Shown: positions 2,404 through 5,670 of the stretch, in pieces
Position numbering within the stretch: the stretch's first letter is position 1
How the letters are laid out: the number at the start of each line of letters is the position of its first letter
NCBI GenBank assembly: GCA_024278315.1
Contig: JAJRTL010000043.1
Span: 1-46,656 of the forward strand
Source of the DNA: Planctomycetota bacterium
GTDB taxonomy: Bacteria > Planctomycetota > UBA1135 > GCA-002748355
DNA: 46,656 bases
Direction of reading: 5' to 3'
The notes under the pieces: model-generated
Databases searched by the model: none
Seen by the model: only the letters and a program-made list of their open reading frames with translations
What the model was told of the DNA's origin: nothing
Position numbers and translations under genes: made by a program

Positions 2404-3591
2404 ATGCGGAAATTACTGCTCAAGAGTTTCGAGGAATGCATCCAGGCCTTGGAGCCTGAGTTTCTTGGGCAGGAGCGCATCTACCTGCGCAGGCTTCAGT
2501 TCGTGGACCTGGAGAAGTCCGAGCTCGTGCTCCTCTCCGAGGGGGATGCCCCTTCGGCCGCTTGCTCGCAGAAGGCGAGTCGCATGATCGCCGATCGGAT
2601 GTCCCAGAAGGTCGGGACGCGGCTTCTGGTGCGGATCCGTGCCAAGAGGCGGGGGGGGCCAGAGCGTGCGCCTGCCGACGTCTCCAAGGTTCCCATCCTG
2701 GATGATTCCAATCGCACCGCCCATCTCCTGCTGCAGGCCCTGGCCGAGCGAAAGGCCCCAGATCTCAACCCGGTGTTCATCTATGGAGCTGCCGGAGTGG
2801 GCAAATCCCATCTCGTGCGGTGGTTCCTGTCGAAGAACGATGTCGAAGCCTCGTACTGGGAAGGCCTTGAATTCTACAAGGTGGTGGCGGGTACGCTCCG
2901 AGCTGGCGAGTTCGCGGAGTTGCGCAAGTCCCTCGTCAAGGTCAAGCTCTTCGTGCTCGACGAGGTGCACCGGCTCAGAGGCAAGCGGCGCACCCAGGAA
3001 GAACTCTGCCTGCTCATGGACGAGTGGATGGCGATGGGGACGCAGGTCCTGTTTCTCGGTCGTCATCATCCCAATGAGATCCGGGATCTGGGCCAGGGTC
3101 TGGCCTCTCGGTTCCTGGGAGGTTTCACCGTGGAGATGGGGGCCCCTGGTCCGGCTGCACGCGAGGAGTTCCTGCGGCGAGCCGGTTTCTCGCCCTTGCG
3201 CGCCGCGAAGGAACTCCCCGAGACCGAGAGGCAGCGGCTCAGCTATCGCGATCTCGAGCGTATTCTGACCCTGCATCGGACAGGCGTTCCGCTGGAGCAG
3301 CGAGTCGGCCAGGGAGGCCCGATCAGGCTCGACACCTGTCTCGAGCGCGTGGCCCAGGCCTTTGGTCTGGAGGTGGCCGAGCTCCATTCCCGCAGCAGCT
3401 GCCGCAAGGTGAGCCTTCCGCGTCAGGTATCGGTCTACCTCCTTCGTCGGGAGGGGCGCAGCCACAGTGAGTTGGCCCGGACCTTCGGTTGGAAGTCGGC
3501 CTCCTCGGTCCACTATGCCATCCAGCGCATCGAGGAGCGGATGTCCAGGGACCGACGATTCCGGGAGATCGTCGAGGGGCTTTCGCGGTGA
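2404..3591 (+). CDS. Divergent DnaA-like replication initiator / AAA+ ATPase
   Basis: Walker A 'PVFIYGAAGVGKSHLVRW', Walker B 'LFVLDEVHRL', 'LASRFLGGFTVEMGAP', 'RDLERIL' sensor II and C-terminal DnaA domain IV-like 'VAQAFGLEVAELHSRSSCRKVSLPRQVSVYLLRREGRSHSELARTFGWKSASSVHYAIQRIEE'. Confidence 0.82.
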   Translation: MRKLLLKSFEECIQALEPEFLGQERIYLRRLQFVDLEKSELVLLSEGDAPSAACSQKASRMIADRMSQKVGTRLLVRIRAKRRGGPERAPADVSKVPILDDSNRTAHLLLQALAERKAPDLNPVFIYGAAGVGKSHLVRWFLSKNDVEASYWEGLEFYKVVAGTLRAGEFAELRKSLVKVKLFVLDEVHRLRGKRRTQEELCLLMDEWMAMGTQVLFLGRHHPNEIRDLGQGLASRFLGGFTVEMGAPGPAAREEFLRRAGFSPLRAAKELPETERQRLSYRDLERILTLHRTGVPLEQRVGQGGPIRLDTCLERVAQAFGLEVAELHSRSSCRKVSLPRQVSVYLLRREGRSHSELARTFGWKSASSVHYAIQRIEERMSRDRRFREIVEGLSR

Positions 3592-4226
3592 CCTCCGGTC
3601 TTCTCTTGGCATTCGAAGGGGCCGATGGTGTGGGGAAGAGTCTCCAGGCCCTGGCGCTTGCGGAATGGTTGCAGGCTCGTGGTCATGTGGTCACGCTGCT
3701 CCGCGAGCCGGGTGGAACCGAGTTCGGGGAGAAGCTCCGTAGTCTGGTCCTGGATGCCAGCGTGACCGGACACGATGCCTGTCTCGAGGCTCTGCTCTTC
3801 TCTGCGAGTCGTCGTCGTCTGGTCCTCGAGAAGATCGAGCCAGCTCTGGGGCGGGGAGAGATCGTCCTGCTGGATCGCTCCTTCCTGAGCACCTGGGTCT
3901 ATCAAGGCTGTGTGGGTGGGCTCTCACTGGATTTCCTGGACGAGGTCTCGCGGTTGGTTCACGGCAAGGCCTGGCCTCAGCGCATTCTCCTCCTGGATCT
4001 ACCGGAGGAAGAACGGCAGCGGCGTCGTGAGGTTCGGGAGGAGGAAGAGGATGGCTTCGAGTCCCGGGGAGCCGCCTACCTCGAGTCGATCGCTGAGGCC
4101 TTCCGGCAGCTGCAGGCGGCACGAGAGGACCTGGTCCATCGGATCGACGCCTCCGGCAGCCCCGAGGTGGTTCTGGAGCGGATTCTCACGGACCTGGCGG
4201 ATCTGATCTTCGAGGTCGACGCATGA
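3588..4226 (+). CDS. tmk: Thymidylate kinase
   Basis: 'LLLAFEGADGVGKSLQALALAEWL', 'REPGGTEFGEKLR', 'LLDRSFLSTWVYQG'. GTG start overlaps the preceding stop (gTGA). Confidence 0.92.
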   Translation: MTSGLLLAFEGADGVGKSLQALALAEWLQARGHVVTLLREPGGTEFGEKLRSLVLDASVTGHDACLEALLFSASRRRLVLEKIEPALGRGEIVLLDRSFLSTWVYQGCVGGLSLDFLDEVSRLVHGKAWPQRILLLDLPEEERQRRREVREEEEDGFESRGAAYLESIAEAFRQLQAAREDLVHRIDASGSPEVVLERILTDLADLIFEVDA

Positions 4227-5140
4227 TCTGGCTGGGGCCCCATATCCAGAGGGTCGAGGCTGGGCTCGATCCCTTGCTTGCGGAGGGGCGACTCCCGCAT
4301 GCGATCCTGATCCAAGGGCCCAAGGGGGTGGGCAAGCGCAGTCTGGCGCACCGGCTGGCCCGCGGGCTGCTCTGTTCCTCGGCCTCCATCAGCGGAGGTT
4401 GTGGGAGCTGTGGTTCCTGCCGCAGGATGGAGCTTGCCGAGCACCCGGATCTGCACCTGCTCGCGCGACCCACGGGAAAGACCAGGATCCCTGTTGCGCA
4501 GGTCAGGGAGCTGCTCGAAGCGCTCAGTCGATCTTCCCTCGAGGGACGTGGACGTGTGGCACTGCTTTGCGGCGTCGAGGATCTGGGGATCGAGGGGCAG
4601 AATGCCCTCCTCAAGACTCTCGAGGAGCCCTTCCCCGGCACCTGGATTCTGTTGACGACGAGTCGCCCGGAGGCATTGCTGGACACGGTTCGTTCGAGGG
4701 TCCATCGCCTGGGGCTCCCCCCTCTGAGTGCTGAGGAGATGCGGGACTTCCTGGCCACCAGCGGATCGGGAGCGCTTGGCGTCGAGGACCTCGAGGCCGT
4801 GGCTGGCGGCAGTCCCGGTCGGTCTCTGGAGCTCAGCGAAGGGGACGGTCTGGCGACCCTGGCGCTCGCGACCCAACTCTTCGGGCAGGGCGCGACCGGA
4901 CAGGACTGGGCCCGCTCCGTCTTCGAGGGGATCACCTCGGGGGAGGAGGGAATGCGGCAAGCCAAGAAGATGAGAGCGCAAGAGGTCCTCGCTCTCTGCC
5001 TGCGGCTGGTGCGCGTGAGAGGGCTCGAAGGGGAGATCGCGGCCTGGAACCAGGTCGAGGCCCTCCTCCAGTCCCAGCGGGATCTGGATCTCGGCCTCGC
5101 TCCGGATCAGGTCTTGCAGGCCTTGCATCGTCAAATCTGA
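4223..5140 (+). CDS. holB: DNA polymerase III subunit delta' (clamp-loader AAA+)
   Basis: 'LPHAILIQGPKGVGKRSLAHRLARGLLC', zinc-module cysteines 'CGSCGSCRRM', 'GQNALLKTLEEPFPGTWILLTTSRPEALLDTVRSR'; ATGA overlap with tmk. Confidence 0.92.
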   Translation: MIWLGPHIQRVEAGLDPLLAEGRLPHAILIQGPKGVGKRSLAHRLARGLLCSSASISGGCGSCGSCRRMELAEHPDLHLLARPTGKTRIPVAQVRELLEALSRSSLEGRGRVALLCGVEDLGIEGQNALLKTLEEPFPGTWILLTTSRPEALLDTVRSRVHRLGLPPLSAEEMRDFLATSGSGALGVEDLEAVAGGSPGRSLELSEGDGLATLALATQLFGQGATGQDWARSVFEGITSGEEGMRQAKKMRAQEVLALCLRLVRVRGLEGEIAAWNQVEALLQSQRDLDLGLAPDQVLQALHRQI

Positions 5141-5265
5141 TGTCACCGGATGAAATGTCCGCCAAGGGGGCTTCCCGTGCGCCCTGAAAGGGTTTGGAAT
5201 ATGGCACTTAAGTCCGCTTCTCATGGGGACGATAAGGACATGGGAATGCGAGGACGCGAGGAACG

Positions 5266-5670
5266 ATGAGCGAGAGTCTGGAAGCAAGAATCCTGGAGTT
5301 GAGGACGCGGGACGCCCGGTACTCGAAGAATGCCTATTTTTTCGTGCTGGATGCCCTGGATCACACCCAGAGCCTGCTGAGTTCGAGCGGACAGCTGGAT
5401 CGGCACATCGGCGGCAAGGAGCTGCTCGAAGGAATCCGGAATCTCGCCACAGACCGATTCGGCGCTCTCGCCAAGGAGGTCTTCAACCAGTGGGGCATCC
5501 TCTCCACCGAGGACTTCGGGCAGGTCGTCTTCAACCTGGTCCACGAAGGGTTGCTCCAGCGCCGTGCGCAGGACAGTCTGCTCGACTTCGCCAATGGCTA
5601 TGACTTCACCCGGGAGTTCGAGGCGGACTACGATTTCCGCGCCGCCTGGGAGAAGCTCAGTCAGGCTTGA
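5266..5670 (+). CDS. Minf_1886-family conserved protein of unknown function
   Basis: 'YSKNAYFFVLDALDHTQ', 'HIGGKELLEGIRNLATDRFGALAKEVFNQWGILSTEDFGQVVFNLV'. Confidence 0.85.
   Translation: MSESLEARILELRTRDARYSKNAYFFVLDALDHTQSLLSSSGQLDRHIGGKELLEGIRNLATDRFGALAKEVFNQWGILSTEDFGQVVFNLVHEGLLQRRAQDSLLDFANGYDFTREFEADYDFRAAWEKLSQA

Follow-up and report, generated by a model that had tools for sequence, protein, structure and literature searches.

The window, by which we mean the whole stretch of DNA analysed here (46,656 nt), comes from a Planctomycetota genome and carries a diverged dnaA gene, which we call dnaA2, on its forward strand. The gene shows the layout by which tmk-linked DnaA2 is recognised in this work, with dnaA2 directly 5' of tmk, followed by holB and Minf_1886 (2404-5670). 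The features of this block are given below, each with the evidence on which it is placed.

2404..3591, + strand: dnaA2, diverged DnaA paralog of 395 aa with domains I-III-IV and a very short linker II (ORF/translation, Pfam/NCBIfam, tree, AF2 model)
2404..2643, + strand: domain I, aa 1-80, helix-helix-strand-strand-helix-strand (secondary structure of the AF2 model)
2785..2808, + strand: Walker A GAAGVGKS, aa 128-135, intact (alignment)
2956..2973, + strand: Walker B LDEVHR, aa 185-190, with DE instead of the DD of DnaA (alignment)
3058..3072, + strand: sensor I GRHHP, aa 219-223, with Arg replacing the Asp that holds the nucleotide (D269 in E. coli) (alignment)
3103..3114, + strand: box VII ASRF, aa 234-237, with the Arg finger R236 (E. 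coli R285) retained (alignment)
3325..3588, + strand: domain IV, aa 308-395, with the HTH fold kept (Pfam, AF2 model)
3490..3519, + strand: rewritten DNA-recognition stretch WKSASSVHYA, aa 363-372 (alignment)
3588..4226, + strand: tmk, dTMP kinase, whose GTG start overlaps the dnaA2 stop in GTGA (ORF, Pfam/NCBIfam)
4223..5140, + strand: holB, DNA polymerase III delta', with an ATGA overlap with tmk (ORF, Pfam/NCBIfam)
5266..5670, + strand: Minf_1886 family protein (TIGR04138, Planctomycetes/Verrucomicrobia), at the fourth place in the conserved block (NCBIfam, synteny)

An earlier note on this DNA had described the first three genes as translationally linked, and both overlaps are borne out: the dnaA2 stop and the GTG start of tmk have GTGA in common (3588-3591), and tmk and holB share ATGA (4223-4226). 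The 4-nt overlap of dnaA2 stop and tmk start recurs in most tmk-linked loci with a readable tmk start. dnaA2 is presumably co-expressed with tmk and holB.

The ATPase core and the domain IV scaffold, which the earlier note considered recognisable, are readily detected by profile searches. Bac_DnaA (PF00308) matches aa 101-243 (3e-22, 79.9 bits) and Bac_DnaA_C (PF08299) matches aa 312-376 (3e-11, 43.6 bits), both above the Pfam cut-offs. The DnaA equivalog model of NCBIfam (TIGR00362) gives 142.5 bits, far under its cut-off of 343.9, and the match to the Hda model (TIGR03420) is weak (52.6 bits vs a cut-off of 194.8). Pfam DnaA_N was not found in window DnaA2, the domain I of which is too diverged, and is present in 15 of 23 relatives. 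The AF2 model (mean pLDDT 89) shows the alpha-alpha-beta-beta-alpha-beta order of domain I, an AAA+ core and the HTH. Its closest PDB matches are the DnaA structures 1l8q and 8btg (Aquifex, B. subtilis), and Hda structures are also among the fold matches.

The genome of the window is a MAG of 5.16 Mb in 518 contigs, estimated to be 85% complete. A check for a second, canonical dnaA, as proposed in the earlier note, led to contig C178, where a 731-codon open frame carries the motifs GGRDHSTVLHS, IDDVQ, TSD, SRMRWG and NIRELEG. We refer to this protein and its counterparts as DnaA1. DnaA2 as the only DnaA of the genome is thereby ruled out, and the proposal that the lineage should use non-canonical DnaA boxes, which had been tied to a sole DnaA, loses its premise. 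In the window genome (locus L060), DnaA1 has a very long domain II linker with tandem STVAQD/STVAQG repeats. Within the window's family (f1, eight genomes, G000-G007), the DnaA1 proteins of G004 and G006 (L064, L066) read GDRNHAT, that is D433N, and judged by this substitution DnaA1 too is drifting in part of the family. Neither a recognisable dnaN nor a recognisable dciA adjoins dnaA1 at L060 and L061 of this family; both loci carry, on the downstream side, a gene for a PIG-L deacetylase together with uncharacterised ORFs. DciA (PF05258) was undetected in G000-G007, four of which are 90-93% complete, and in the 53 of 53 other genomes of the order that encode it the gene lies mostly 2-3 kb from dnaA1.

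The relationship between the two proteins was addressed with a FastTree phylogeny of 52 DnaA1, 67 DnaA2 (45 tmk-linked and 22 non-tmk) and three outgroups from PDB sequences. DnaA1 together with B. subtilis DnaA is split from DnaA2 with a support of 0.911, and of 0.98 without the motif columns. All 45 tmk-linked DnaA2, the window's included, are monophyletic (0.884, or 0.986 after dropping the motif columns). Because support rises once these columns are dropped, the motifs do not account for the split between DnaA1 and DnaA2. D433 was partly used to delimit DnaA1, and the tree built without motif columns returns the identical set. Support for all 67 DnaA2 as a single group is low (0.21), and long-branch attraction of the fast-evolving DnaA2 sequences is possible in this tree. 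Taken from the phylogeny, DnaA2 is an ancient DnaA paralog that took up its place 5' of tmk-holB a single time, and the non-tmk and the tmk-linked proteins most likely represent one paralog.

DnaA2 precedes tmk-holB in 7 of 7 family relatives and in 15 of 16 sampled genomes of the sister family f6. It is found in f7 and f2 as well, and f4 retains a shortened form of 305 codons from which much of the lid is missing. The sister families f5 and f8 have tmk-holB-Minf_1886 without DnaA2, and DnaA2 is thus dispensable there. Across the phylum, our survey found two DnaA-type matches in most genomes. The sequence flanking tmk was read in 60 genomes, as were the loci of the best second DnaA matches, and this places a DnaA directly 5' of tmk in 14 families. 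The genes that come next are usually holB and Minf_1886. Other families have their second DnaA at a different place, away from tmk. That dnaA2 sits at the same position in every family relative, and across 14 families, rules out a horizontal acquisition or a local oddity of the window. Two genomes of the survey (G087 and G089, estimated to be 91-93% complete) gave zero DnaA-type matches at E <= 1e-12, and several genomes of f37, possibly the group of 'Ca. Kuenenia', gave three.

In E. coli DnaA, bases of the box are contacted by R399, D433, H434 and T435, and the Arg finger is R285 (PMC7561715), while sensor-I D269 stabilises the nucleotide and sensor-II R334 acts in hydrolysis (PMC4245941). 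Window DnaA2 has S, S, A and S at the four base-reading positions, and the canonical set is thus absent. The rewritten signature described in the earlier note, GWKSASSVHYA (aa 362-372), aligns to GGRDHSTVLHS of DnaA1 on C178 and has W363 and S365 in 8 of 8 family members; the reported Walker B change is equally real, with LDEVHR standing opposite IDDVQ. An alignment accident is ruled out by the constancy of W363 and S365 and by the D433 column, which holds Asp in 0 of 67 DnaA2.

The residue counts, ordered here as DnaA1, non-tmk DnaA2 and tmk-linked DnaA2, extend this picture to the whole sample. D433 is present in 50/52, 0/22 and 0/45 proteins and H434 in 52/52, 19/22 and 9/45. The sensor-I Asp is found in 51/52, 17/22 and 1/45, with Arg in its place in 41/45 tmk-linked proteins. 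For the Arg finger R285 the counts are 52/52, 22/22 and 18/45; it is retained as R236 in 8 of 8 members of the window's family and gone in 27 of 45 tmk-linked DnaA2, including those of f6, f7 and others. R334 of sensor II occurs in 52/52, 17/22 and 4/45, a loss of ~90% in the tmk-linked group; window DnaA2 has Arg in this column, yet only 1 of 8 family members does. The second Walker B residue is Asp in 51/52, 21/22 and 9/45, and Glu in 32/45 tmk-linked proteins. Nearly all sequences retain R407, an Arg of domain IV, and the Lys of Walker A. On the aligned residues, the change is graded: D433 is lost in all DnaA2, and the ATP-timer residues are then lost in the tmk-linked clade. The same columns indicate that tmk-linked DnaA2 is without the residues that make DnaA a reader of DnaA boxes and an ATP/ADP timer.

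This combination bears on the idea that DnaA2 is a second initiator for another origin, one with non-canonical boxes, which it would open. The complete domain set I-III-IV, the intact Walker A and the altered recognition helix would suit such a role. The sensor-I Asp, the sensor-II Arg and the Arg finger, however, are required for ATP-DnaA function in E. coli, and the first two and mostly also the third are lost from DnaA2. Since the gene is moreover wholly lost in f5 and f8, we regard a second initiator as very improbable. DnaA2 probably is not an origin-opening initiator and regulates or assists initiation instead.

Six close DnaA2 pairs have dN/dS values of 0.09-0.32. As these lie below 0.33, dnaA2 is functional. 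The fast sequence change and the shortened remnant in f4 could be read as signs of a decaying pseudogene without function, but the reading frame is open in all relatives, and the operon, the overlap and the family motifs are conserved. The low dN/dS together with the conserved frames and motifs rules out a pseudogene, the probability of which we consider negligible. The recognition helix is conserved above the mean of the whole protein (0.72 vs 0.55 in f1, 0.90 vs 0.67 in f6), yet the two families differ in its sequence, GW.S.SS in f1 against RTRAAVSY in f6. This pattern fits a DNA recognition that would be maintained but family-specific.

Searches for the corresponding target sites gave little. 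Within ~6 kb of dnaA1 and dnaA2 in families f1, f6 and f7, two single matches to the DnaA box TTWTNCACA were found, none of them in the window. The origin probably lies elsewhere than at these loci, or variant boxes are in use. Upstream of dnaA2 in f1 and f6, no clear common operator-like k-mer exceeded the shuffled sequences. The latter result speaks against DnaA2 as a local transcription factor, that is an (auto)repressor or activator of dnaA2-tmk-holB and other replication and nucleotide genes that tunes the dTMP supply and has no direct role at the origin. A simple repressor would moreover not need the retained domain I and AAA+ core. DnaA itself is a transcription regulator, and the close packing with tmk and holB in one operon, where most relatives show 4-nt overlaps, the conserved family-specific recognition helix and the lost ATPase-timer residues are all in line with such a function. 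We consider it possible, albeit rather unlikely.

In another explanation, DnaA2 acts like Hda, contacting DnaA1 and accelerating ATP hydrolysis by DnaA1 after initiation. Both Hda and DnaA2 are DnaA-derived AAA+ proteins that exist beside DnaA, a gene of the clamp loader is linked to dnaA2, the fold search also returned Hda structures, and 8/8 members of the window's family and 22/22 non-tmk DnaA2 retain the Arg finger. This residue is missing, however, in 27/45 tmk-linked members. Hda is essentially domain III alone, whereas DnaA2 has domains I and IV, the latter kept under constraint. Furthermore, a regex scan of the N-terminus of tmk-linked DnaA2 returned no clamp-binding-like motif, although a divergent motif is possible. 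The earlier suggestion of a Hda/DnaA-like regulator is therefore not supported as far as membership in the Hda group is concerned, given domains I and IV, the N-terminus and the loss of the Arg finger in most tmk-linked relatives. An Hda-like inactivation of DnaA1 appears unlikely.

The distribution of DciA raises the question of whether DnaA2 took over the delivery or co-loading of the helicase in the window's family. DciA is undetected in 8/8 genomes of this family and present in 53/53 others of the order, and no dedicated DnaC/DnaI-like loader was seen in the family, where IstB-type matches occur in one or two genomes only. In E. coli, DnaB is bound by domain I of DnaA (PMC5835720), and the DE of the DnaA2 Walker B is the usual AAA+ form. 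On the other hand, DciA may have diverged too far for the model. The sister families f6 and f7 carry both DciA and DnaA2, which rules out a general replacement of DciA by DnaA2. Helicase loading restricted to the window's family is, in our estimate, decidedly unlikely.

The explanation we prefer is that DnaA2 is a DNA-binding AAA+ protein with altered specificity and without a nucleotide timer, which would modulate initiation or its own gene set; we give this about an even chance of being correct. The earlier note had proposed a paralog with different DNA specificity. The paralog part stands, since DnaA1 is encoded elsewhere in the genome and DnaA2 forms a separate, phylum-wide clade, while the different specificity is suggested by the residues. 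Domain I, the Walker-intact AAA+ core and the HTH of DnaA2 are retained under purifying selection. In the mechanism proposed here, the protein would bind lineage-specific target sites in a sequence-specific manner. Its nucleotide exchange would be fast, and it would be produced jointly with delta' of the clamp loader and with dTMP kinase. DnaA2 might then modulate initiation with or against DnaA1, via domain I and/or the AAA+ interface; by an alternative route, it might control the replication genes beside it. Several results count against this preferred reading: the searches for boxes near either gene and for common upstream k-mers yielded no target site, f5 and f8 do without DnaA2, the loss of the Arg finger in f6, f7 and others argues against one catalytic mechanism for all, and the grouping of the 67 DnaA2 is weak and open to long-branch effects. 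DnaA1 would be expected to pick TTATNCACA-like boxes, and DnaA2 another motif that varies by family. A more elaborate two-protein system is conceivable, in which DnaA1 provides box recognition and ATP timing, and DnaA2 reads a second set of co-evolving sites and ties initiation to clamp loading and the synthesis of dTMP, its helix being rewritten stepwise and separately in each family and the protein maybe replacing DciA in f1. We put this forward tentatively and hold it to be rather doubtful.

With canonical DnaA, DnaA2 shares the domain order I-III-IV, the Walker A, the HTH fold and the top structural matches. It differs in the absence of D433 and H434, the exchange of the sensor-I Asp for Arg and of DD for DE, a sensor-II Arg that is not conserved in the family, a linker II that is almost missing and its coexistence with DnaA1. 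With Hda it has in common that a DnaA-derived AAA+ protein stands beside DnaA and that, in the window's family, the Arg finger is kept; the domains I and IV and the lack of a detected clamp-binding-like motif set it apart. The non-tmk DnaA2 proteins (f20, f25, f37, f42, f57 and others) resemble the tmk-linked ones in that D433 is replaced. Their change is milder: H434, T436 and the Arg finger are still there, and so, usually, are the sensor-I Asp and the sensor-II Arg.

More than one dnaA in a genome of the PVC superphylum has precedents, as the passages on dnaA copies mention two in Chlamydiales (PMC2878342) and three in 'Ca. Kuenenia' (PMC7709395). These passages count the copies and contain nothing on tmk linkage or residue changes. 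Our search of open-access literature brought up no description of a DnaA linked to tmk, nor any of altered residues in the DnaA of planctomycetes. Thus, relative to this literature, multiple dnaA copies are already known, and the tmk linkage and the rewriting of residues are apparently new.

DnaA is usually single-copy and strongly constrained. The DnaA2 series, which runs from proteins with only D433 changed to proteins with all box-reading and nucleotide-switch residues changed, constitutes a natural experiment on initiator specificity and on the ATP switch. Annotations that use either dnaA as a marker for the origin in Planctomycetota may choose the wrong copy. Finally, DnaA2 is a concrete candidate for the control of initiation in a phylum with an unusual cell biology.
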